Assembly (NCBI RefSeq): GCF_003570885.1
Contig: NZ_QXJC01000001.1
Location: forward strand, 372,001 to 436,000
Length of the DNA stretch: 64,000 nucleotides
Direction of reading: 5' to 3'
Source: Simplicispira hankyongi
GTDB taxonomy: Bacteria; Pseudomonadota; Gammaproteobacteria; Burkholderiales; Burkholderiaceae_C
The translations under genes and the position numbers were made by a program. Of the stretch, positions 36,780 through 48,639 are shown in pieces. The notes under the pieces were generated by a model. That model did not search any database and was not told the origin of the DNA. It saw nothing but the letters and a program-made list of their open reading frames with translations. Positions within the stretch are counted from its first letter, which is position 1. Each line of letters starts with the position of its first letter.

Positions 36780-38033
36780 TCAGGTGAAAATTCCCCATAG
36801 CCCGGCAAACAGGCCAAACCCAGCGGTCACCGCGATCGTGATGCCCACGATCCAGCTGTAGCACCCCGACAGGCGGTACGGAGCCGGGAGCGCCCGCCGC
36901 GCGAGCATGAAGAGAAAACCCAGGACGATAGGCAGCAAGAGCGCGTTCATCACCTGGACACCCACGCTCAACTCGACCAGATCAACGCCAGAGGCAACAA
37001 GTATGGCGCCAAGCACGAGGGCGACTGTGTAGACACCATAGAACCAAGGTGCTTCACGCGGGTGGTACGCCAGCGAATGCTTGAAGCCAAGGATTTCGCC
37101 CAGGGTGCGAGCGGCCGTCAGCGTGACAACAATCGTCGCGATCAGCGCGGCCCCAATCATGCCGAGCGCGAACATCAAGGTGCCCGTGTGCTCGCCAACG
37201 AAGGGCGTGATCGCCTGGGCAATCTGCTGAACGGTGTCCAGGGATTGCCCCTTGTGGGCATTGCCGATGGTGGCGGCAGTGACCACCAGGACAGCGGCCA
37301 TGATGATCTGGGTGACAACGGCACCCATGGCGGTGTCCCAGCGCGCGGCCGGAAGATCCTCGGCGGTCAGGCCTTTTTCCACGACGGCAGACTGCTGATA
37401 GAAAACCATCCAGGGCATGATCACCGCGCCGACGTTGGCCGCTGCGAGGTACAGGTACTTCGGGTCAGAGAACGGGATGGACACAGCACCAACCGCCATC
37501 GCGCCAATATCAGGATGCGCCTGCCAGGCGACAACAAGAAAAACAAGTTCGAACAGGCCGACCGCCAGGGCAATGCGCTCGACAGTCTGGTACGACCCCG
37601 TATAAGCCATGAACACCAAGCCCCCCACCACGATGGCCATGCTCTCCCAAACCGGTATCCCCACCAGCATGCCGACGCCGGCAACGCCGCTTAGCTCTGT
37701 CACAAGGGCACCCACGCAGGCCAGTAGCAGCGTGGAGACGGATATCCAGGCCCAGATCGGGCCAAAATGCTTGCGGATGCCCCGTGCGTGGCCCTCGCCG
37801 GTGACGATGCCAAGCCGGACGGTGAGCTCCTGGACAATGTAGAGGATGGGAATCAGCACCGCCTGCAAGAGCAGCAGACGGTAGCCCCACTGGGCACCGC
37901 TCTGTGCCGCGGTAATGATGCTGCCGGCGTCAGTGTCCGCCAGCATGACCACGGTGCCCGGCCCGACAATGGCCGCAAAGCGACCCCATCGCGGACGGCG
38001 AAGCGGCATTGCCAGCGCGGTTGCATTTGTCAT
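36780..38033 (-). CDS. Nramp-like divalent metal transporter with altered metal site
   Basis: A 417-residue, about 11-helix protein of the Nramp family. Family landmarks include GAQWGYRLLLLQ and the GEGHARGIRKHFG segment. The metal site is unusual: the canonical DPGN of helix 1 is DAGS (35-38), and the MPH of helix 6 is MPW (206-208). The binding Asp and Met are kept, but Asn is Ser and His is Trp. Ordinary members import Mn or Fe; changed sites occur in Nramp-related magnesium-type transporters. A good Fur box lies 15 bases upstream of the start, so iron is a likely substrate or signal. Confidence 0.88.
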   Translation of the reverse strand: MTNATALAMPLRRPRWGRFAAIVGPGTVVMLADTDAGSIITAAQSGAQWGYRLLLLQAVLIPILYIVQELTVRLGIVTGEGHARGIRKHFGPIWAWISVSTLLLACVGALVTELSGVAGVGMLVGIPVWESMAIVVGGLVFMAYTGSYQTVERIALAVGLFELVFLVVAWQAHPDIGAMAVGAVSIPFSDPKYLYLAAANVGAVIMPWMVFYQQSAVVEKGLTAEDLPAARWDTAMGAVVTQIIMAAVLVVTAATIGNAHKGQSLDTVQQIAQAITPFVGEHTGTLMFALGMIGAALIATIVVTLTAARTLGEILGFKHSLAYHPREAPWFYGVYTVALVLGAILVASGVDLVELSVGVQVMNALLLPIVLGFLFMLARRALPAPYRLSGCYSWIVGITIAVTAGFGLFAGLWGIFT

Positions 38034-38167: not shown

Positions 38168-39538
38168 TCACACCCAGGCGCACTCACAGGTGAAATGGCG
38201 CAGAAACTGCGGCTGCTTGGTGATGCGCACGCCGCGGATGCTCGCTGCTTTCTGCTTGACCTCGGCGATCACCTCGGCGGCGTAGTCGAAGTGCGACTGC
38301 GTGTACATCCGCCGCGGAAACGCCAGGCGCACCAGTTCCATGCTGTGGTAGGTCTCGGTGCCATCCGCCAGGCGCTTGCCGAACATGACCGAGCCGATCT
38401 CCACGCCCCGAATGCCGCCCTCCAGGTACAGCGCGTTGCACAGCGCCCAGGCGGGGTAGTGCGCCACGGGCATGTCGGGCAGCACTGTTTTGGCGTCGAT
38501 GTACACCGCGTGGCCGCCGGTGGGCTTGACGAAGCCGACGCCAGCGGCGTCCAGCCGCTCGCCCAGGTATTCGGCGGTGCGCAGGCGGTAGCGCAGATAG
38601 TCCTCGTCCATGCCCTCCTCCAGGCCGACGGCCATGGCTTCCAGGTCGCGCCCGGCCAGACCGCCGTAGGTGGGAAAACCTTCCATCATGATCAGGCCGT
38701 TGCGCACGCCGTCCATCCATTCGTCGCTGCGCAGCACGATAAAGCCGCCGATGTTCACCATGGCGTCTTTCTTGGCGCTCATGGTGGCGCCGTCGCAGTA
38801 CGAGAACATCTCTTGGACGATGTCGCGGATGGGGGTGTTCTCGTAGCCCGGCTCGCGCATCTTGATGAACATGGCGTTCTCCGAGAAGCGGCACACGTCC
38901 ATGATGAAGGGCTTGCCGTACTTCTTGAGCAAGGCCGAATACGCACGGATGTTGGCCATCGACACGGGCTGGCCGCCACCGGTGTTGTTGGTCACGGTGA
39001 TCATGCCAAACGGAATGCGCGCTCCCTCTTTTTCCAGTATGGCCTCAGCGCGCGCCAGATCGATGTTGCCCTTGAAGGGGTAGATCAACGCCGGTTGCAG
39101 TCCCTCGGGAATGACAAGATCGACCGCCTCGATGCCCAAATATTCGAGGTTGGCGCGCGTGGTGTCGAAGTGGCAGTTGTTGGGTACCAGATCGCCCTTC
39201 TTGCACACCGCCGTGAACAACACCTTCTCGGCCGCGCGGCCCTGGTGCGTGGGTACGAAGTGCTGCATGCCGGTGATGTCCTGGATCACTTTTTCCAGCC
39301 GGTAGAAGCTGCGCGCGCCGGCATAGCTCTCGTCGCCCTCCATGATGGCACCCCACTGGCGGCTGGACATGGCGCCAGTGCCGGAATCGGTCAGCCAGTC
39401 GAGCAATACGTCTTCGGCGCGCAGCTTGAAAACGTTCAGATACGCCGCTTCCAGCAGTTGCTCGCGCTGCGCACGCGTGGTCATGCGGATGGGCTCGATG
39501 CTCTTGATGCGAAAGGGTTCGATGAGGGTTTTGGGCAT
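38168..39538 (-). CDS. tnaA: tryptophanase / tyrosine phenol-lyase family protein
   Basis: The 456-residue PLP enzyme is homologous along its whole length to tryptophanase and tyrosine phenol-lyase (EPFRIKSIEPI, LTDSGTGAMS, VPTHQGRAAEK). The PLP lysine lies in MSAKKDAMV, the form found in tryptophanase (tyrosine phenol-lyase has SGKKDCLV), as do RGVEIGSVMFGK and ITKQPQFLRHFT. It should split tryptophan to indole, pyruvate and ammonia. No TnaC-type leader or TnaB permease is nearby. It lies downstream of the LacI-type gene, 136 bases away, on the same strand. Tryptophanase is preferred over phenol-lyase. Confidence 0.82.
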   Translation of the reverse strand: MPKTLIEPFRIKSIEPIRMTTRAQREQLLEAAYLNVFKLRAEDVLLDWLTDSGTGAMSSRQWGAIMEGDESYAGARSFYRLEKVIQDITGMQHFVPTHQGRAAEKVLFTAVCKKGDLVPNNCHFDTTRANLEYLGIEAVDLVIPEGLQPALIYPFKGNIDLARAEAILEKEGARIPFGMITVTNNTGGGQPVSMANIRAYSALLKKYGKPFIMDVCRFSENAMFIKMREPGYENTPIRDIVQEMFSYCDGATMSAKKDAMVNIGGFIVLRSDEWMDGVRNGLIMMEGFPTYGGLAGRDLEAMAVGLEEGMDEDYLRYRLRTAEYLGERLDAAGVGFVKPTGGHAVYIDAKTVLPDMPVAHYPAWALCNALYLEGGIRGVEIGSVMFGKRLADGTETYHSMELVRLAFPRRMYTQSHFDYAAEVIAEVKQKAASIRGVRITKQPQFLRHFTCECAWV

Positions 39539-39674: not shown

Positions 39675-40733
39675 TCACGGCAGGTTTTCGCGAAAAATAA
39701 CCTGGCTGCGCGCCACTTCCACACCACCCATGGGTTCGAGCCCATCGCGCACGTTGGCGAAAATGCGCACGCAGCTGCTCATGGCGGTTTGCGGACTTTG
39801 CGTAATCACGGCGTCCATGGTGCCGCGAATCAAGAGCGCCCGCGTGTCGGGCGAGAGGCCGTGACCGACAAAGGCGACTTGTTGTGCGCGCCCGGCCTCT
39901 TCCAACGCGCGGGCAACGCCATCCGAGGCACCGCCAATGTTGTAGATGCCGGCCAACTCCGGGTGCTGTTCCAGCAGCACCCGGGTCTGCGCATAATTTT
40001 TCGCTGCGTCGTCATGCCCTTCACGCAGGCCCACGACCTCGACCTCGGGAAACTGCTCCTGAAACAGCTGAAGAAACCCGGCTTCACGGTCTTCATGGGC
40101 GCGGTAGCTCAGGCTGCCGGCAATCATCGCCACCTTGGTCACCCTGCCCGTACGCGGGCCGATGAAGCGGCCGATGAGGTAGGCCGCCGTCCGGCCCGCG
40201 GCGCGGTTGTCCAGGCCCACATAGGCCGCTCGCCGGGTACTCGAGATGTCCGAGATCAGCGTCACTGTGGGCACATTGCGCTCAGCCAGGCTGTCAACCG
40301 CTTCGCGCACCGCCGGGTGCTCCAGCGCCATGAACGCGACACCGTTGGCCCGCTCGCCAGCGCGCAAAAGGCTGCGTGCCAGTTCATCGGGGTTGAAGCT
40401 TTCAATGAACTCCACATGGCAGCACACGTTGTAAGGCGCCCAGTGGTCCTGCAAATAGCCGACGCTGTCACCCATCATGCGAATGAAGCGGTTGGTGCCG
40501 CCGGGCAACAGGAACGTAAGCCGCATAGGCTGCGGCGCAAGTGCTGCGTAGAGGTCGCTCTCGGGAAGGTAGCGCAATTGCGCAGCGGCGCGCAGCACGC
40601 GCTGTACCGTGGCCGTGCGCACGCCCGCGCGCCGGTTGAGCACACGGTCAACGGTGGCCGTGGAAACGCCTGCCAACCGTGCCACATCGGGCAAAAGTGC
40701 CGGTTTGGCGAACGTTTTGGAGCCCTTGGTCAT
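39675..40733 (-). CDS. LacI family transcriptional regulator
   Basis: A 352-residue LacI/GalR-type repressor. The HTH is at residues about 15-35 (LLPDVARLAGVSTATVDRVL) with the hinge helix (PESDLYAALAPQPM). The remaining part is a periplasmic-binding-protein-like sensor domain with IYNIGGASDGVARALEEAG. It diverges from the TRAP / RuBisCO-like operon across a 134-base intergenic region holding a palindrome, and is the obvious candidate regulator of that operon. The ligand is unknown and is likely the imported acid or a pathway intermediate. Confidence 0.92.
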   Translation of the reverse strand: MTKGSKTFAKPALLPDVARLAGVSTATVDRVLNRRAGVRTATVQRVLRAAAQLRYLPESDLYAALAPQPMRLTFLLPGGTNRFIRMMGDSVGYLQDHWAPYNVCCHVEFIESFNPDELARSLLRAGERANGVAFMALEHPAVREAVDSLAERNVPTVTLISDISSTRRAAYVGLDNRAAGRTAAYLIGRFIGPRTGRVTKVAMIAGSLSYRAHEDREAGFLQLFQEQFPEVEVVGLREGHDDAAKNYAQTRVLLEQHPELAGIYNIGGASDGVARALEEAGRAQQVAFVGHGLSPDTRALLIRGTMDAVITQSPQTAMSSCVRIFANVRDGLEPMGGVEVARSQVIFRENLP

Positions 40734-40780
40734 CTCGGGTTTACCCTAGAAAAAACATCAAAATACATCAACAAAGTAAT

Positions 40781-40809
40781 TTGACGCTATGGCATCCAAC
40801 CCATATCGT
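40781..40809 (+). promoter_or_regulatory. probable promoter of the TRAP-RLP operon
   Basis: TTGACG (40781-40786) and TATCGT (40804-40809) are spaced by 17 bases; the -10 is weak (4 of 6). Transcription would start at about 40816, just upstream of the proposed LacI operator. Confidence 0.4.
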
Positions 40810-40827
40810 CAAGGCTCTTTCTAAAAA

Positions 40828-40837
40828 TGATGCATCA
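40828..40837 (+). promoter_or_regulatory. probable LacI-type operator
   Basis: TGATGCATCA is a perfect palindrome flanked by AA and AA, placed between the -10 element and the start codon of the TRAP binding-protein gene. CATCA half-sites recur at about 40756, 40765 and 40843, as AACATCAAAATACATCAAC and GTCATCATC. The repressor gene is next to it. Confidence 0.5.
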
Positions 40838-40867
40838 AAAGTCATCATCTATCAACCAGGAGACACC

Positions 40868-41887
40868 ATGACAGAAATGACCCGCCGCAGCCTGTTGCGC
40901 ACCCTGTCCGCTGTGCCGGTTGCCGGCATGACAACAGCCTTGCCGGCCATGGCGCAGACCGCCGAGTTCTCGCTCAAGTACGGCAACAACCTGCCCGTTA
41001 CGCACCCGTTGAACATCCGCGCAAAGGAGGCCTGCGATCGCATCCTCAAAGAGAGCAAGGGGCGCGTGGACATCAAGATCTTCCCCAACAACCAGTTGGG
41101 CGGCGATACCGACATGCTTTCGCAGGTGCGCTCGGGCGGCATAGATTTCTTCACACCCTCGGCGCTGGTGATCGCTACCCTGGTGCCTGTCGCGGCCATC
41201 AACGCGGTGGGATTTGCCTTCTCTGACTACAACCAGGTGTGGTCGGCCATGGACGGTGATCTGGGCGCCCACGTGCGCGCCGCCATCGCCAAGATGCACC
41301 TGCACACGTTTGAAAAGATGTGGGACAACGGCTTTCGCCAGACCACCAGCAGCAAGGCGCCGATCACCACCGCCAAAGACCTTGACGGCCTGAAGATCCG
41401 CGTGCCGGTCAGCCCGCTGTCGATCTCCATGTTCAAGGGGCTGGGCGCCTCGCCCACCAGCCTGCAGTTCAGCGAGGTGTATTCGTCGCTGCAAACCAAG
41501 ATCGTGGACGCGCAGGAAAACCCGCTGCCGATCATCCAGGTCGCCAAGCTGTACGAAGTGCAGAAATTTTGCTCGCTCACCAACCACATCTGGGACGGTT
41601 ACTGGTTCATTGCCAACGGCCGCACCTGGGAGCGCCTGCCGGCCGACCTCAAGGCCATCGTGTCTGCCGCCATCAACGACGCCGGCATGGGGCAGCGGGA
41701 CGACATCAAGAAGCTCAACGAGTCGGTCGTGGGCGACCTGCAGTCCAAAGGCCTGGCCATCAACCGCCCTGCCGCCGAGACCTTCCGCGCCAAGTTGCGC
41801 GAAGCCGGCTTCTACGGCGAGTGGAAAGGGCGCTTTGGCGACGAGGCCTGGGGCTTGCTGGAAAAGTCGGTGGGCAAGCTGGCCTGA
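40868..41887 (+). CDS. TRAP transporter substrate-binding protein (DctP family)
   Basis: The periplasmic binding protein of the system, 339 residues, with a twin-arginine-type signal (TRRSLLRTLSAVPVAGM) and cleavage near AMA-QTAEF. Typical DctP segments are LDGLKIRVPVSP, whose arginine binds a carboxylate, and SEVYSSLQTKIVDAQENPLP. The ligand is thus expected to be an organic or sugar acid. A CAGGAGA ribosome-binding site precedes the ATG at 40868. It is the first gene of the operon, controlled by the LacI regulator. Confidence 0.94.
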   Translation: MTEMTRRSLLRTLSAVPVAGMTTALPAMAQTAEFSLKYGNNLPVTHPLNIRAKEACDRILKESKGRVDIKIFPNNQLGGDTDMLSQVRSGGIDFFTPSALVIATLVPVAAINAVGFAFSDYNQVWSAMDGDLGAHVRAAIAKMHLHTFEKMWDNGFRQTTSSKAPITTAKDLDGLKIRVPVSPLSISMFKGLGASPTSLQFSEVYSSLQTKIVDAQENPLPIIQVAKLYEVQKFCSLTNHIWDGYWFIANGRTWERLPADLKAIVSAAINDAGMGQRDDIKKLNESVVGDLQSKGLAINRPAAETFRAKLREAGFYGEWKGRFGDEAWGLLEKSVGKLA

Positions 41888-41982
41888 TTCGACCCACGTT
41901 CCCCGAGCGGCGCTTGCGCGGCAGCATGGCTGCTGCGCGGCTGGGCGCCTTGGCGACCAATTTTTGAAAGCACCCCACGTCC

Positions 41983-43860
41983 ATGTCTCACGCCACTGAT
42001 CCTGCGTCCGAGTTGCCCACCAACCCTGTCAGCGCGCTCGCGTGGCGGCTCGACCATGGCTTTGGCATGGTGATGGAAACGTTGGGTGCGGCCATCGTGC
42101 TGATTGAGATCGCCGTGCTGTTCTCGGGCGTGGTGGCGCGATACGCGCTGCACGCACCGCTGGTGTGGACCGATGAGCTCGCGTCCATCCTTTTCCTGTG
42201 GTTGTCCATGCTCGGCGCCGTGGTGGCCTTGCGCCGAGGCGACCACATGGCCATGACAGCGATCCTCAATCGGGCCAAACCCGGCACGCGCGCCATGCTC
42301 CAGACGGTAGCCATTGCTGCAGCCCTGGCATTTCTGGCCCTGGTGCTCTGGCCTGCCTACCAATACGCCGATGAAGAGCGCTACATCATCACCCCAGCAC
42401 TGGAGGTAAGCAACGCCTGGCGTGCATCCGCAATTCCGTTCGGTGCGCTGTTGATGATCGTCGCGGCCGTGCTGCGCCTTTTCAAATTCAGCACGCTGCG
42501 GCAGATCGGTCTGGCCATCACCATCACCGCTGTATTGGTCGCGGCCTTCTGGCTGGCCCAGCCGGTATGGGCGATGCTCGGAAAGCTGAACCTCATCGTG
42601 TTTTTCGTGGGAGTGGTGGCGGGCTGCGTGTTTGCCGGCGTTCCCATTGCCTTCTCGTTTGCGCTGGCCACCTTCGGCTACCTCGCGCTCACCACACAGA
42701 CGCCCATGGTGGTGATGGTCGGGCGCCTCGACGAAGGCATGTCGCACCTGATGCTGCTGGCCGTGCCACTGTTCATTTTTCTAGGCGCCCTGATCGAAAT
42801 GACGGGTATGGCGCGCGCCATGATCGGGTTTCTCGCCAGCCTGCTCGGCCATGTGCGCGGCGGCCTGTCGTATGTGCTGATCGGGGCGATGTACCTGATC
42901 TCGGGCATCTCGGGCTCCAAGATCGCCGATATGGCGGCCATTGCGCCGGTGCTGTTTCCTGAGATGAAAAAACGCGGCGCCAAACCGGGCGACCTGGTCG
43001 CGCTGCTGTCGGCGACCGGAGCACAGACGGAGACCATTCCGCCGTCCATCGTGCTGATTACGATCGGCTCGGTCACTGGCGTGTCGATCGCGGCACTGTT
43101 CACCGGCGGGATGCTGCCCGCCGTAGTGCTGGGCGTTTGCCTGTGCAGTGTGGTGTGGTGGCGCAACCGCAACGAAGACCTGAGCGGTGTGCGGCGCTTT
43201 CCGGCGCGCGAGATCGGGCGGCTCTTTCTGGTGGCCCTGCCGGCGATTTTGCTGCCCTTTGTGATCCGTGCCTCGGTCGTCGAAGGCGTGGCCACGGCCA
43301 CCGAGGTTTCGACGATCGGCATCATCTATTCGGCCCTCGCCGGCCTCGTGTTCTACCGGCGATTCGACTGGCGGCGCCTGCGCCCCATGCTCGTGGAAAC
43401 CGCCTCGCTGGCCGGCGCCATCATGCTCATCGTCGGTTGTGCCACCGCCATGGCCTGGGGCTTGACGCAGTCGGGCTTCTCCACCGATCTGGCTCGGTTC
43501 ATGGCGAATATTCCGGGCGGGCGGTTTGGCTTTCTGGCGATCTCCATCCTCGCCTTCATCGTGCTCGGTTGTGTGCTGGAAGGCATTCCCGCGATCGTGC
43601 TGTTTGGCCCCCTGCTCTTCCCCATTGCCCGTGCCGCCGGCGTGCACGAGGTGCATTACGCCATGGTGGTCATCCTGTCGATGGGTATTGGTTTGTTCGC
43701 ACCACCCATTGGCGTTGGCTACTACGGTGCCTGCGCCGTCAGCAAAGTCGATCCGAGCGAGGGCCTGAAGTACATCGGCGGCTACATGGCAGCGCTGGTT
43801 CTCGGCCTGCTGCTGGTGGCGGCCATTCCCTGGATTTCCACAGGCTTCCTCAAGGGCTAA
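41983..43860 (+). CDS. fused TRAP transporter small and large permease (DctQ-DctM)
   Basis: The 625-residue protein joins both membrane parts of the TRAP system. Residues about 15-200 form the DctQ part (four helices, LWLSMLGAVVALRRGDHMAMT), and residues about 200-625 the DctM part (GLSYVLIGAMYLISGISGSKIADMA-type segments, SATGAQTETIPPSIVLI, MGIGLFAPPIGVGYYGAC). Sodium-driven uptake is expected, together with the upstream binding protein. Fused QM proteins are a known form. The gene follows the binding protein by 95 bases. Confidence 0.93.
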   Translation: MSHATDPASELPTNPVSALAWRLDHGFGMVMETLGAAIVLIEIAVLFSGVVARYALHAPLVWTDELASILFLWLSMLGAVVALRRGDHMAMTAILNRAKPGTRAMLQTVAIAAALAFLALVLWPAYQYADEERYIITPALEVSNAWRASAIPFGALLMIVAAVLRLFKFSTLRQIGLAITITAVLVAAFWLAQPVWAMLGKLNLIVFFVGVVAGCVFAGVPIAFSFALATFGYLALTTQTPMVVMVGRLDEGMSHLMLLAVPLFIFLGALIEMTGMARAMIGFLASLLGHVRGGLSYVLIGAMYLISGISGSKIADMAAIAPVLFPEMKKRGAKPGDLVALLSATGAQTETIPPSIVLITIGSVTGVSIAALFTGGMLPAVVLGVCLCSVVWWRNRNEDLSGVRRFPAREIGRLFLVALPAILLPFVIRASVVEGVATATEVSTIGIIYSALAGLVFYRRFDWRRLRPMLVETASLAGAIMLIVGCATAMAWGLTQSGFSTDLARFMANIPGGRFGFLAISILAFIVLGCVLEGIPAIVLFGPLLFPIARAAGVHEVHYAMVVILSMGIGLFAPPIGVGYYGACAVSKVDPSEGLKYIGGYMAALVLGLLLVAAIPWISTGFLKG

Positions 43861-43899
43861 GCCGCCGCCCCCTTTACTGACGTTGATTGAAAGAACCCC

Positions 43900-44439
43900 A
43901 TGAGCCGACATTTCGGAGAGATTCGCCAACTGGGCTATGTCGTGCACGACATCGAAGCCGCTATGGACTATTGGAGCAAGACACTGGGCGTCGGCCCCTG
44001 GTACTACAACCCACAAGTGCCGATCGTCAACTACCGCTACGACGGCCAGGCCTACCAGCCACACAACTCGGTGGCGCTCGCCAATTCGGGCTTTGTGCAG
44101 GTGGAACTCATCCAGACGCGCAACGACGTACCCTCCATGTACCGCGACTTCCTGCAAGCCGGCCGCACTGGTCTGCAGCATGTGGCGTACTGGACGCAAG
44201 ACTATGACGCCGACATCGAGCGCCTGCTCGCCCAGGGCTTCAAGCCCAAGATGAGTGGCGAGGTCGGCGAGCGCGGGCGTTTCATCTATTTCGACACCGA
44301 ATACCACCCCGGTACGGTCATCGAGCTGTCGGAGGTCGCCGGGCCCAAGGGGCGCCTGTTCGACCTGATCCGCACCTCCTCGCAAGGCTGGGACGGCAGC
44401 GACCCGGTGCGTCCCTTCCCTGATCTGAGCAGTTTCTGA
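43900..44439 (+). CDS. VOC (glyoxalase/epimerase) family protein
   Basis: A 179-residue vicinal-oxygen-chelate protein with the two beta-alpha-beta-beta-beta modules of the methylmalonyl-CoA epimerase / glyoxalase I type. Candidate metal ligands are Gln10 (RQLGYVVHD), Glu69 (VQVELIQ), His94 (GLQHVAYW) and Glu142 (VIELSEVAG), matching the Gln-Glu-His-Glu set of glyoxalase I rather than the His-first epimerases. The role here is unknown; being between the transporter and the RLP gene it may be an isomerase or epimerase of the imported acid sugar. The RLP gene begins 13 bases after its stop. Confidence 0.85.
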   Translation: MSRHFGEIRQLGYVVHDIEAAMDYWSKTLGVGPWYYNPQVPIVNYRYDGQAYQPHNSVALANSGFVQVELIQTRNDVPSMYRDFLQAGRTGLQHVAYWTQDYDADIERLLAQGFKPKMSGEVGERGRFIYFDTEYHPGTVIELSEVAGPKGRLFDLIRTSSQGWDGSDPVRPFPDLSSF

Positions 44440-44452
44440 GGGTTGGCGCAGC

Positions 44453-45718
44453 ATGAATACCGATCGCATCCTGGCCCGCTATCTCGTGGAAACGCCGCTC
44501 GATCCTGCGCGCGTGGCCGAAGTGATGGCGGGCGAGCAGTCCTGCGGCACCTTTGCGCGCGTGGCGGGCGAAACCGATGCATTGCGCAAGCGCGCCCGTG
44601 CCACGGTGCAAGGCATCACCACCCTGGCCACCACCAGTGCCCCGAGCCTGCCCAACGCGTGGCTCACGCGGCACGCCCCGAGCGGGCCGTGGCACCAGGT
44701 GCAGATCGACATTGCCTACCCGGTGGCCAACATCGGCGCGAACCTGCCCACGCTGGTGGCCACGGTCGCCGGCAACCTGTACGACCTGGGCGAAGTCACC
44801 GGCATGCGGCTCGAAACCCTGCAACTGCCGGCCGACTACCGCACGCAATTCGAGCTGCCCGCCGTCGGCATCACCGGGACGCGGCGCATTACCGGCGTCG
44901 ACCAGGGGGCACTGGTGGGCACCATCATCAAACCCAACGTGGGCCTGTCGCCGCAGCAGACGGCCGAACTGGTGCGCACCCTGTGCGAGGCCGGCGTCGA
45001 TTTCATCAAGGACGACGAAGTCTGCGCCAACCCAGTCCACGCACCGCTGGCCGAGCGTGTGCCGGCCATCATGGCCGTCGTGCGTGCGCACCAGGAACGC
45101 ACCGGCAAGCACGTAATGGTGGCGTTCAACATCAGCGACGAAACCGACGCCATGAAACGCCATGCCGATCTCGTGGCGCGTGAAGGCGGCTCCTGCGTGA
45201 TGGCCAGCATCAACTGGTGCGGCTACTCGGCCATGCAGACCTTGCGCCGCCACACCCCGCTGGCGCTGCACGCCCACCGCAACGGCTTTGGCGCGCTCTC
45301 GCGCCACCCGGGGCTCGGCATCGGCTTTCAGGCGTACCAGACCCTGTGGCGCCTGGCTGGCGTGGACCATATGCACGTGCATGGACTGCAGGGAAAATTC
45401 GCGCAGGCCGATGAGGAAGTCGTCCAATCTGCGCGCGACTGCTTTACGCCGCTCATCTCAGGGCTTGACGACCGCGTCCTGCCAGCGTTTTCTTCCGGCC
45501 AGTGGGCGGGCACCGTGCCCGCCACCTGGGACGCCATCGCCAGCGACGATCTGCTGTTCATGTCGGGCGGCGGCATTCTGGCCCACCCGGACGGGCCAGC
45601 GGCCGGCGTCATGAGCCTGCGCCAGGCTTGGCAGGCCGCTCGTTCGGGAACGCCTTTGGCTGATTTCGCCCGACTGGCGCCAGAACTCTGCCGCGCGCTG
45701 ACGTTCTTTGGCCAATAG
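44453..45718 (+). CDS. RuBisCO-like protein (RLP)
   Basis: A 421-residue homologue of the RuBisCO large subunit, without its C-terminal extension. Active-site equivalents are present: Lys160 (GTIIKPNVG), the carbamate lysine and metal site Lys186-Asp-Asp-Glu189 (DFIKDDE), the His275 in HAHRNGFG, His308/310 with Lys315 (MHVHGLQGKF) and the phosphate loop SGGGILAHP (371-379). It is thus able to bind a carbamate and Mg. The DUF1537 kinase follows after 23 bases, the gene pair known from 3-oxo-isoapionate pathways (OiaX/OiaT with OiaK). A reaction of decarboxylation or transcarboxylation on a phosphorylated 3-oxo acid is inferred; carbon fixation is unlikely. Confidence 0.9.
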   Translation: MNTDRILARYLVETPLDPARVAEVMAGEQSCGTFARVAGETDALRKRARATVQGITTLATTSAPSLPNAWLTRHAPSGPWHQVQIDIAYPVANIGANLPTLVATVAGNLYDLGEVTGMRLETLQLPADYRTQFELPAVGITGTRRITGVDQGALVGTIIKPNVGLSPQQTAELVRTLCEAGVDFIKDDEVCANPVHAPLAERVPAIMAVVRAHQERTGKHVMVAFNISDETDAMKRHADLVAREGGSCVMASINWCGYSAMQTLRRHTPLALHAHRNGFGALSRHPGLGIGFQAYQTLWRLAGVDHMHVHGLQGKFAQADEEVVQSARDCFTPLISGLDDRVLPAFSSGQWAGTVPATWDAIASDDLLFMSGGGILAHPDGPAAGVMSLRQAWQAARSGTPLADFARLAPELCRALTFFGQ

Positions 45719-45741
45719 CCCGGGAACGAGCACCCCCTGCC

Positions 45742-47079
45742 ATGGCCGTCTCTAAGATCGCACCACCGCGCATCGTCTATTACGCGGACGACTTCACCGG
45801 GGCCACCGACACGCTGGCCAACGCAGCCCGTGCGGGCCTGCGCGCTCTGTTGTTCCTGACCCTGCCCACACCAGCGCAGCGCGCAAGGGCAGGTGCGCTC
45901 GATTGCCTGGGCATTGCCGGCGCCGCACGCGCCATGGCGCCAGCTGAAATGGCCGCCGAACTCGCCCCCGTGGGAGCCTTCTTTGCCGCTTCGGGCGCAC
46001 GGGTGCTGCATTACAAATGTTGCTCTACTTTTGACAGCGCGCCCCATGTGGGCAGCATCGGCCAGGCGGTGCGCAGCCTGCGCCCCTATGCCCCCAACCC
46101 GTGGGTGCCGGTTGTCGGTGGCCAGCCGAACCTGGGGCGCTACTGCGTCTTCGGCAACCTGTTTGCCGCCGCAGGCAGCGGGGGTACGGTGCACCGCATC
46201 GACAGACACCCCACCATGCGCCAGCACCCGGTCACCCCCATGGGTGAGGCTGATTTGCGGCGCCACCTCGCGCAGCAAGGGCTGGTGCAAATAGGCGGGC
46301 TCGACTACACCGCCTATGAAGCGCCAGAAGCAGGCCAGTTGACACGGCTTCAAGCCTTGCACCTGGCGCACCCCGATGCCGTGCTGCTCGACGTCGCCCG
46401 GCCGGCCGACCTGGTTCCCGTCGGTCAGCTGATCTGGCGCGCTGCGCTGCAGCAGCCCCTCCTCGCGGTCGGCCCCAGCAGCGTGGTGCAGGCCCTGACC
46501 GCCGCATGGGCCGCCAATGAAACGCCCTTGCCTGCAGCGCAAGCGAACCCGCCGATCGGTCCATCCAAAGGGCCGGTGCTGGTGCTGGCCGGCAGCCTCT
46601 CGCCGATTACCGCTACCCAGGTGCAGCACGCCACCTCGTTCTCCCACGTCGCGCTGGACCCTGCGCAACTTGTGAACGCCGATGGCGCCTACCGCCAGCG
46701 GTTGGCCCTCGAAGTGGCCGCGGCACTGCAGGACGGACACCATGTGCTGGCCTGCACGTCGAGCGCGGGCGGCAGCCCCGCCGCAGGCTTGTCCATCGGT
46801 TCGCGACAGCTTGCCCTCGCGTGCGGCGAATGGCTGGCAACCGTGCTGAACCACACCTCGGTGCGCCGCGTCGGGATTGCCGGGGGCGACACCTCCAGCC
46901 TTGCGGTGCAGGCACTCGACGCCTGGGGCCTGTCGCATCTGGGCCAGCTCTCGCCCGACCAAGCGCTGTGCCGGCTGCACAGCAACGTCCCGGCGCTCGA
47001 TGGCCTGGAGCTCATGCTCAAGGGCGGACAGATGGGGCCACCGGATCTGTTCGAACGTCTGGTGCGCGGCGCAGCCTGA
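45742..47079 (+). CDS. four-carbon acid sugar kinase family (DUF1537) protein
   Basis: A 445-residue two-domain kinase. The N-terminal substrate domain has YYADDFTGATDTL, and KCCSTFDSAPHVGSIG with its typical STFDS loop, and the C-terminal ATP domain has GGDTSSLAVQAL and KGGQMGPPDLFERLV. Members phosphorylate acid sugars such as D-threonate, D-erythronate, 3-oxo-tetronate and 3-oxo-isoapionate. Here it probably makes the phosphorylated substrate for the RuBisCO-like protein encoded 23 bases upstream. It is the last gene of the operon. Confidence 0.92.
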   Translation: MAVSKIAPPRIVYYADDFTGATDTLANAARAGLRALLFLTLPTPAQRARAGALDCLGIAGAARAMAPAEMAAELAPVGAFFAASGARVLHYKCCSTFDSAPHVGSIGQAVRSLRPYAPNPWVPVVGGQPNLGRYCVFGNLFAAAGSGGTVHRIDRHPTMRQHPVTPMGEADLRRHLAQQGLVQIGGLDYTAYEAPEAGQLTRLQALHLAHPDAVLLDVARPADLVPVGQLIWRAALQQPLLAVGPSSVVQALTAAWAANETPLPAAQANPPIGPSKGPVLVLAGSLSPITATQVQHATSFSHVALDPAQLVNADGAYRQRLALEVAAALQDGHHVLACTSSAGGSPAAGLSIGSRQLALACGEWLATVLNHTSVRRVGIAGGDTSSLAVQALDAWGLSHLGQLSPDQALCRLHSNVPALDGLELMLKGGQMGPPDLFERLVRGAA

Positions 47080-47178: not shown

Positions 47179-48639
47179 TCACAAGTAGGGCGACAGCAGC
47201 CATACCAGCCGATTGCGCAGCCGTGCGGGCAGATGCTGGCGAGCCAGCGTGGCGGCATCGAGCGGCGTGGCGCGGGCGATGCGGGTGTCGATCAGCGGGC
47301 TGAGCTTGCGCACCAGTTCGCCATCGTGGCATTCCAGGTTGTATTCAAAGTTGAGCCGCAGGCTGCGCGCGTCCCAGTTGGTCGAACCAATCAGCGCCCA
47401 GGCACCGTCCACCACCAACAGCTTGGCGTGGTCGAACGGCGCTGGCGTGAGGTAGATGCGGCAGCCGGCTGCCAGCAGTGCGTCGAACTGCGGGCGCATG
47501 GCCCAGTCGAGCAGCGGCAGGTTGCTGCGCACCGGCAGCACGATGTCCACCACCACGCCGCGCAGTGCCGTCGTCTGCAGCGTGCTCAGCACCACTTCGT
47601 CGGGCAGAAAGTACGGCGTGACGATGCGCACCCGCTGCCGCGCCGCAGCCAACGCGCCCAGAATGACCTGGCGCATGTGGTCCATATCGGCGTCCGGGCC
47701 ATCGGTCACGCCCCGCGCCAGCACCGAGCCACTGGGCTGCGGCGGCGCAAACCAGGGCGCGCCATGCAGGCGCTCGCCCGTGGTGAACGCCCAGTCGGTG
47801 GCGAAAGCGCGCTGCATGTCGGTGGCCACCGGCCCACGCACTTCGAAATGCAGGCAGTGCACGGGCGTGGCCGGCTGCCTGCCGATCCAGTGGTTGGCGC
47901 TGATGTTCATGCCGCCGGTAAAACCGACCACGCCGTCCACCACCAAAATCTTGCGGTGGTTGCGCAGGTTCACATGCGAGAGCACGCGCGTGAATGCAGG
48001 CGGCAGGAACGCGGCGCAGGGAATGCCCAGCGCCCGCAGGCGCCGCAGCACGCCGGTCGGCCGATAGCGCGATCCCACGGCATCGATCAGCACGCGCACC
48101 TGCACGCCCCGCGCCTGGGCGCGCGTCAGCGCCTGCACAAAGGCTTCGCCCACGGCGTCGTTGTGGAAGATGTAGGTCAGCAGCGTGACGGACTGCCCGG
48201 CCGCGTCGATCGCTGCCAGCATCGCCGGGTAGGCGGTGTCGCCATCGGGCAGAGGCACGACACGGTTGCCCGCCAGCAGCGGTTTTCCCGTCACCTGACG
48301 GGCCACCCGGGCCACGCCGCCCAGCGGAGCATCCACCGCCTCGTCGGGGACTGCAAAGGCTTCGGCCAAGTCGCCTTCGCTCTGCCAGGCTTTGCGCAGG
48401 CCCAGCGCCACCCCAGTGCGCCCGATGCGGTTGATGCCCAGCAACCAATACGCAAGCGCACCACCGAACGGTGCCAGCCAGGCCAGACCAATCCAGCCGA
48501 CTGCAGCGTGCACTTCGTCCTTCTTCATCAGCGCATGCAGCGTGACGGCGATCGCCAGTGCGATGTGCACCGAGGAGACCAGCCACAGCGCAAAACCATG
48601 CAGCAGTTGCAGCAGCAGCGTGGGCAAGGACGGTTCCAT
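47179..48639 (-). CDS. cardiolipin synthase (Cls family, PLD superfamily)
   Basis: Joins two phosphatidylglycerols to form cardiolipin in the inner membrane. The 486-residue protein has two N-terminal membrane segments and two HKD catalytic motifs, HRKILVVDG and HAKLLVVDG, the second followed by GSTNWDARS. The layout matches ClsA. It converges on the kinase gene with a repeat between. No sensor of regulation was seen. Confidence 0.92.
   Translation of the reverse strand: MEPSLPTLLLQLLHGFALWLVSSVHIALAIAVTLHALMKKDEVHAAVGWIGLAWLAPFGGALAYWLLGINRIGRTGVALGLRKAWQSEGDLAEAFAVPDEAVDAPLGGVARVARQVTGKPLLAGNRVVPLPDGDTAYPAMLAAIDAAGQSVTLLTYIFHNDAVGEAFVQALTRAQARGVQVRVLIDAVGSRYRPTGVLRRLRALGIPCAAFLPPAFTRVLSHVNLRNHRKILVVDGVVGFTGGMNISANHWIGRQPATPVHCLHFEVRGPVATDMQRAFATDWAFTTGERLHGAPWFAPPQPSGSVLARGVTDGPDADMDHMRQVILGALAAARQRVRIVTPYFLPDEVVLSTLQTTALRGVVVDIVLPVRSNLPLLDWAMRPQFDALLAAGCRIYLTPAPFDHAKLLVVDGAWALIGSTNWDARSLRLNFEYNLECHDGELVRKLSPLIDTRIARATPLDAATLARQHLPARLRNRLVWLLSPYL

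Follow-up and report, generated by a model that had tools for sequence, protein, structure and literature searches.

A conserved operon with a VOC-fold protein, a RuBisCO-like protein and a DUF1537 kinase in Simplicispira hankyongi, a probable variant of OiaK/OiaX-type acid-sugar breakdown

Gene content of the locus

The window analysed is a 64,000-nt stretch of the 3.7 Mb genome of Simplicispira hankyongi. It contains a compact group of five plus-strand genes (40868–47079), which encode a tripartite ATP-independent periplasmic (TRAP) transporter, a protein of the vicinal oxygen chelate (VOC) fold, a RuBisCO-like protein (RLP) and a DUF1537 kinase, opposite a gene for a LacI-family regulator. 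The gene set is a conserved module common to many proteobacteria and not a local oddity. The same layout had been given by a first-pass annotation made from the letters of the window alone; an open reading frame (ORF) check and a domain-model search of the window agree with it in the coordinates and the domains of all the genes.

The regulator gene occupies positions 39675–40733 of the minus strand, and its product combines a helix-turn-helix with a Peripla_BP_4 sensor domain (PF00356 and PF13407, both above cut-off). The plus-strand group begins with the TRAP substrate-binding protein DctP (40868–41887; PF03480, 246 bits), whose nearest solved structure is 4oan (452 bits), and a fused TRAP permease DctQ-DctM (41983–43860; PF04290 and PF06808). 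The VOC-fold protein, a proposed 2-oxo/3-oxo acid isomerase, is encoded at 43900–44439 (PF13669, 90 bits), the RLP, a proposed decarboxylase or other cleaving enzyme of 3-oxo-acid phosphates, at 44453–45718 (PF00016, 216 bits, and PF02788), and the kinase at 45742–47079. Both domains of the latter, SBD_N (PF07005, 174 bits) and NBD_C (PF17042, 92 bits), are over their cut-offs, as expected of a DUF1537 acid-sugar kinase. The intergenic gaps from DctP to the kinase are 95, 39, 13 and 23 bases long. The whole genome has one RuBisCO_large match and one DUF1537 match.

The gap between the LacI and DctP genes holds two exact copies of CATCAAAANNCATCA on the plus strand (40756–40770 and 40833–40847), a direct repeat of CATCA spaced 10 bases; shuffled sequences average 0.04 copies per window when up to one mismatch is allowed. 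These repeats are probably the LacI operator. A palindromic operator was also sought in the window and no convincing one was found, the direct repeat being found instead.

Conservation and kinship of the module

In a scan of named genomes, at least 586 matching stretches were confirmed, and the best 80 loci, with RLP identities of 70–79%, were kept, their cassette genes being located by tblastn. A search for the RLP–DUF1537–VOC neighbourhood had been proposed in the first-pass annotation. The VOC, RLP and kinase genes are consecutive, on one strand and in the same order in all 80 of these best relatives, so the arrangement is more than chance. LacI is present in 77 of them, the remaining three being short contigs. 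The transporter is of the window's TRAP type in 67 loci, of a second TRAP type in two and a family-3 ATP-binding cassette (ABC) system in nine; the two loci with no transporter class lie on short contigs whose edge holds a DctQM match, and one locus (L124) has the binding protein and no DctQM match. Nine of the 80 cassettes are headed by a gene for a short-chain dehydrogenase/reductase (SDR), 75–77% identical to a Neorhizobium SDR that likewise heads the cassette on a plasmid. Among the matches listed, the nearest RLP relatives in named records belong to Variovorax and other Comamonadaceae. Of the plasmid matches H1–H18, 11 with an RLP identity of 56–79% were read (H4–H9 and H15 aside), and the complete set was found in each, in ten by annotation and in one unannotated record by tblastn. 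No description of this module was found among the open-access papers listed; a mention in Carter et al. 2018 is possible.

The more distant plasmid matches H19–H60 (RLP identity up to 51%) are represented by 12 stretches with incomplete gene tables, and within these limits none of the 12 has an annotated VOC gene. Apionate-type genes occur in L044, L127 and L131 (L numbers denote loci, G numbers genomes), and an ApnO-like gene alone in L130. In L043, L128, L129, L132 and L135, a transporter is joined by a dehydrogenase whose annotation reads SDR or glucose 1-dehydrogenase, and the first of these loci also has an ApnO-like gene. These five loci form a second recurrent RLP–kinase layout, with dehydrogenase, LysR, transporter and, in some, pyruvate kinase. 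RLP–kinase pairs were also seen amid polysaccharide-degradation genes (GH28, GH78, beta-L-arabinofuranosidase, pectinesterase) in L126, L133 and L134.

The module was also approached from the VOC side, in a phylum sample of 398 genomes at a cut of 1e-20, where 22 matched. A VOC protein of at least 67% identity goes with the cassette in all seven loci read. Paralogues of 49–56% identity were tried as a hint to the chemistry and set aside, as an RLP or cassette-kinase match occurs in none of the ten loci read (of 11). Around these paralogues (L160–L169), ORFs named by eye recur: SDR-like in five of ten loci, a tripartite-type binding-protein-like ORF in five and a family of about 190 aa in six. 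In L207 (6536–14505), the gene for a 60% VOC relative adjoins those of a TRAP system, and an OiaK-like kinase and PdxA are encoded close by; no RLP match was found in L207 or L210, which jointly span the 27.5 kb contig. This layout suggests that the VOC protein may also work with another decarboxylase.

The best curated model for the window RLP is OiaX (NF042437), at 442.7 bits against a cut-off of 700; the RLP of L044 reaches 761 bits with the same model. Its best solved relative is 3nwr (669.8 bits, the next structure scoring 188.5). Phylogeny was studied in a tree of 71 rows, which includes one OiaX row (L044, on a long branch) and contains no characterised OiaT sequence. The cassette RLPs and 3nwr form one clade of 37 rows with a support of 100/99; the OiaX row, the apionate-locus RLPs L127 and L131, the SDR-locus RLPs and a single cassette row (L172) fall outside it. 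The clade is thus separate from the OiaX row and from the apionate-locus RLPs, which answers the OiaX half of the phylogenetic question raised in the first-pass annotation.

Key residues, numbered through a HMMER alignment to 1geh, lead to the same distinction. K160, K186, D188, E189, H275, R276, H308 and K315, the counterparts of RuBisCO Lys175, Lys201, Asp203, Glu204, His294, Arg295, His327 and Lys334, occur in every one of the 103 cassette rows. N162, at the place of Lys177, is found in 102 of the 103 and H310 in 101 (the exceptions being L172 and L007); 29 other RLPs have S or G at the former place and N or G at the latter. 3nwr shares both letters with the window RLP. The catalytic residues and the common fold family are what could recommend the protein as an enolase/isomerase of methylthio-sugar salvage or as a true CO2-fixing RuBisCO; both are scarcely credible in view of the Asn at the Lys177 place, the kinase and TRAP partners, and scores far under the cut-offs (149.6 of 409 bits for the DK-MTP-1-P enolase, 231.4 of 497 for CO2-fixing RuBisCO).

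The best NCBIfam model for the kinase is OiaK (NF042436), with 310 bits against a cut-off of 700, followed by OtnK with 158.7 against 350. The OiaK cut-off is strict, since the kinase beside OiaX in L044 also stays below it (444 bits); the kinase of L129 scores 577.

The AlphaFold model of the VOC protein (pLDDT 87.9) has the VOC superfamily fold, in accordance with PF13669, and its best PDB neighbours are 3gm5 (Foldseek E-value 4.3e-11) and methylmalonyl-CoA epimerases; the methylmalonyl-CoA epimerase sequence model gives 23.2 bits against a cut-off of 115. Q10, Q67 and H94 align through 6xbs, and E142 through 3gm5, with residues that we take to be the metal ligands of the His/Gln/His/Glu site of the epimerase. 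These four positions do not vary in any of the 20 rows compared, which include six paralogues. VOC enzymes work through metal-bound enolates or enediolates. Such chemistry would suit a shift from a 2-oxo to a 3-oxo acid, and this role for the window protein is plausible from its modelled fold and from the putative metal site, which is conserved.

Of the 77 loci that have the regulator, 61 carry a slightly wider form of the repeat no more than 450 bases from LacI, and this form occurs at four other places in the same loci. It accompanies the TRAP transporter in 51 of 58 loci, the TRAP transporter with SDR in four of nine, the ABC transporter in four of eight and the second TRAP type in two of two. 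The pattern was derived from the loci in which it was counted, so its conservation is partly built in. The occurrence of the repeat before LacI with all three transporter types argues for one inducer.

The flanks of the best 80 loci were compared through the 45 largest ORF clusters; the ORFs were picked by their GC content at codon positions, a rule that let in spurious frames, and were named by eye. Apart from the families of the cassette, the transporter and the SDR, recurrent ORFs stand at scattered positions (a TctC-like binding protein in 22 loci and an aldehyde-dehydrogenase-like protein in nine), and among these clusters no widely recurring gene has a fixed position downstream of the kinase, which fits a product that enters central metabolism. 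In the window, LacI is adjoined by a gene for a tryptophanase/tyrosine phenol-lyase relative (38168–39538, minus strand; subfamily model 664 bits, under the equivalog cut-offs), itself adjoined by a gene for an NRAMP-fold transporter (36780–38033, minus strand; PF01566, MntH model 100 bits against a cut-off of 430). On the other side, a cardiolipin-synthase-like protein is encoded at 47179–48639 of the minus strand (263.5 bits against an equivalog cut-off of 290).

RLP–kinase exchange and the proposed pathway

The cassette VOC was found in 19 of 265 genomes of genus g220, probably Bradyrhizobium, and all 19 neighbourhoods were read. In 14 of them, LacI, DctP, DctQM and VOC are kept at 63–78% identity to the window proteins and the RLP–kinase pair is a different one; the remaining five carry the usual RLP and kinase, and among these L246 has the SDR and shows no DctQM match. 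The swapped RLPs are 52–54% identical to the window RLP and 67–70% to the RLP of L127, and a matching kinase lies alongside; one (L235) was matched only in part. The wider repeat is present in both swapped loci checked (L172, L230). In the tree, the swapped RLP (L172) belongs to a clade with L127, L131, L129 and L135, which L263 joins by identity. L127 (Shinella) has ApnO-like, ApnL-like and Gfo/Idh genes; L131 (Paraburkholderia) has an annotated oiaK and an ApnL over the cut-off (770 of 750 bits); in L263, of genome G579, a similar RLP adjoins a kinase and an ApnO-like gene. One swapped genome (G507) has no ApnO-like match above 23.5 bits. The exchange indicates that the compound leaving the VOC protein is accepted by the clade of the replacing RLPs, and 3-oxo-isoapionate is the likeliest of the candidates for that compound. 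Because LacI, transporter and VOC stay constant, the exchange narrows the intermediate to a compound taken by two RLP clades.

The operon probably degrades an acid sugar by way of the kinase and then the RLP. In the pathway proposed, a keto acid sugar would enter through the TRAP system; some relatives would instead take up a hydroxy acid and oxidise it first by the SDR. In a step that is redox-neutral overall, the VOC protein, probably metal-dependent, would turn the imported compound into a 2-hydroxy-3-oxo acid, for which 3-oxo-isoapionate or a closely similar compound is the likeliest candidate. The terminal hydroxyl of this acid would be phosphorylated by the DUF1537 kinase, and the RLP, equipped with the RuBisCO lysines and metal ligands, would break the C–C bond beside the carboxylate to give central metabolites, either by decarboxylation or by transcarboxylation/hydrolysis as in OiaT. 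OiaT-type cleavage yields 3-phosphoglycerate and glycolate; it is slightly favoured over decarboxylation, though not decisively, by the lack of a downstream gene in a fixed position. LacI, probably bound at the CATCAAAANNCATCA repeats, would sense the substrate or an intermediate.

The identity of the substrate, the reaction of the VOC protein, the type of cleavage by the RLP and the role of the repeats are all predicted from sequence. A self-contained catabolic operon in which the VOC protein makes 3-oxo-isoapionate or a close 3-oxo acid, later phosphorylated and cleaved, has about an even chance of being correct, and an isomerase of the carbon chain or ketone is an evenly balanced proposal for the VOC protein itself. 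The choice of 3-oxo-isoapionate as the intermediate is tentative, at somewhat less than even chances. What stands of the acid-sugar operon of the first-pass annotation is its kinship to, and not identity with, the OiaK/OiaX branch; its substrate and its isomerisation by VOC are retained as predictions. The idea that the starting acid may differ from the known ones is a conjecture; the exchange points to 3-oxo-isoapionate or a close compound as the intermediate.

Several findings weigh against this pathway. The swapped kinase is nearest to that of L129 (58%), an SDR/TRAP locus with no ApnO-like gene in its stretch, and the swapped RLP is equally near L129 (69%) and L127 (68%); because of this nearness to L129, the substrate of the swapped pair may be a different 3-oxo acid. 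The ApnL-like protein of L127 is under the cut-off (313 of 750 bits). One swapped VOC gene (L234, G963) has an in-frame stop, and a stop lies inside the RLP match of L238. The OiaK score had to be dropped as a test of substrate: the swapped kinase (551 bits) outscores the one that stands next to OiaX in L044. In the VOC protein, the first assumed ligand, Q10, replaces the His of the epimerases, as Q does in 3gm5, and conservation is lacking at the residue aligned with the catalytic Glu43 (E43) in the solved epimerase. The wider repeat is absent from 16 of the 77 loci and from L034, L035, L038 and L177. Finally, the 4oan stretch is matched at 100% identity by a gene of G771, and this locus of 4oan itself has no VOC, RLP or kinase match within the stretch read; the neighbours of the gene are a fused permease gene and an ORF that by eye resembles an acyl-CoA synthetase. 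For that reason the structure, and 2-acetolactate, with which its density was reportedly modelled, were given little weight as a guide to the substrate.

Instead of a branched compound, a linear 2-oxo acid, such as 2-oxo-tetronate or 2-oxo-hexonate, could be shifted by the VOC protein to the 3-oxo form through an enediol, phosphorylated at its end by the kinase and decarboxylated by the RLP, in a non-orthologous copy of OtnI-OtnK-OtnC. The shared logic of isomerase, DUF1537 kinase and decarboxylase speaks for it, as do enolate chemistry, which fits the epimerase-like VOC fold, the second place of OtnK among the kinase models, and the RLP–kinase loci with SDR and no annotated ApnO-like gene (L128, L129, L132, L135), to one of which the swapped kinase is nearest. 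However, the OiaK and OiaX models outscore all other NCBIfam models on the kinase and the RLP, and the replacing RLP lies in a clade that includes apionate-locus RLPs; a linear acid is considered somewhat unlikely.

In a further reading, the VOC protein would perform the skeletal ketol-acid rearrangement, a hydroxymethyl shift, that ApnO couples to oxidation, and SDR plus VOC would amount to a split oxidoisomerase. This is unlikely. If true, the SDR-less cassettes would import the keto acid directly, and the route would consist of three enzymes, be free of redox steps and end in the RLP. To our knowledge, a skeletal shift of this kind would be new for the VOC fold, and the performance of ApnO's step without redox a new reaction for the VOC superfamily.

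It is distinctly unlikely that the VOC protein is an epimerase, which would set the configuration of a 3-oxo acid imported as such by the TRAP system. In its favour, the nearest folds are methylmalonyl-CoA epimerases and a putative one, 3gm5, which has Q at the first ligand as well, and none of the four assumed ligand positions varies in the 20 rows. 4oan, the closest binding protein of solved structure, was reportedly modelled with 2-acetolactate, a 2-hydroxy-3-oxo acid, which would suit such an import; the 4oan locus, however, differs. The lack of conservation at E43 is a further objection. Because C2 of 3-oxo-isoapionate bears no hydrogen, an epimerase that works by simple proton abstraction would require a linear acid. 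2-acetolactate is named as a TRAP ligand in a review (PMC5812351).

Ordinary D-apionate catabolism, with oxidoisomerase and lactonase encoded elsewhere, is very improbable. The first-pass annotation had noted that both enzymes are missing at the locus, and ApnO-like and ApnL-like queries found no match in the window genome; the same tool found relatives of the ApnO query in other genomes, and the ApnL query was controlled by our own tblastn alone (three other loci), which leaves its absence less well controlled. Proteins annotated as 'phosphogluconate dehydrogenase C-terminal domain' are those we take to be ApnO-like, as no model names ApnO. PF16896, tried as a test for ApnO, was empty in the window genome and also in the controls and hence uninformative. 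The SDR query found only relatives of up to 40% identity in the window genome. Among the seven other cassette genomes tested, a strong ApnO-like match occurs in only two (G579, G654). In G579, 2.3 kb separate the cassette from genes for ApnL-like, Gfo/Idh/MocA and sugar ABC proteins, which favours a link with apiose; the ApnO-like gene of that genome, however, is elsewhere, with an RLP and kinase of its own, so this link was kept as weak support and not as decisive. Six more cassettes of the G579 family (L264–L269) have no ApnL-like, Gfo/Idh or ABC genes within their stretches, and among the loci searched, ApnL-like or matching Gfo/Idh genes share a stretch with only one cassette (L177). Given the absence of ApnO-like and ApnL-like matches in the window genome and the separate RLP–kinase pair of the ApnO-like gene in G579, the cassette is not simply part of the known D-apionate route. 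Two outcomes had been named in advance as contrary to a separate system, an RLP inside a known OiaX/OiaT clade with the same substrate, and missing pathway genes that turn up elsewhere and act on known apionate; neither was seen, the former as far as OiaX is concerned.

Comparison with known systems

The tetronate pathway OtnI-OtnK-OtnC isomerises its substrate to a 3-oxo acid, which is phosphorylated by a DUF1537 kinase and then decarboxylated. The window operon follows the same logic with an isomerase and a decarboxylase from other families, and its kinase reaches only 158.7 of the 350 bits required for OtnK. With methylmalonyl-CoA epimerase and 3gm5, the VOC protein has in common the fold and most of the assumed metal site, including the first Q in the case of 3gm5; unlike methylmalonyl-CoA epimerase, it has Q for the first His, no match for the catalytic Glu and a score of 23.2 of 115 bits.

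Few reactions of RuBisCO-like proteins are known to us. 3nwr, a solved RLP listed without function, belongs to the same clade as the window RLP and stands in the tree beside a Paraburkholderia cassette RLP; this neighbour (L108) carries the cassette. The solved structure, the compact operon and the wide alpha- and betaproteobacterial spread make the reaction of the RLP directly testable.

The closest known system is the part of D-apionate catabolism that runs through OiaK-OiaX or OiaK-OiaT (Carter et al. 2018, as cited in PMC6302742). In both, a DUF1537 kinase adjoins an RLP; the OiaK and OiaX models are the best NCBIfam models for the window proteins, and the catalytic RLP residues are kept. 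In contrast to that route, the window genome has no ApnO-like or ApnL-like match, a VOC gene is part of every cassette read, the window RLP belongs to a separate clade with N162 and H310, and both proteins score far under the equivalog cut-offs. The operon is a conserved module around an RLP clade with no assigned reaction, and probably a variant of OiaK/OiaX-type acid-sugar breakdown.

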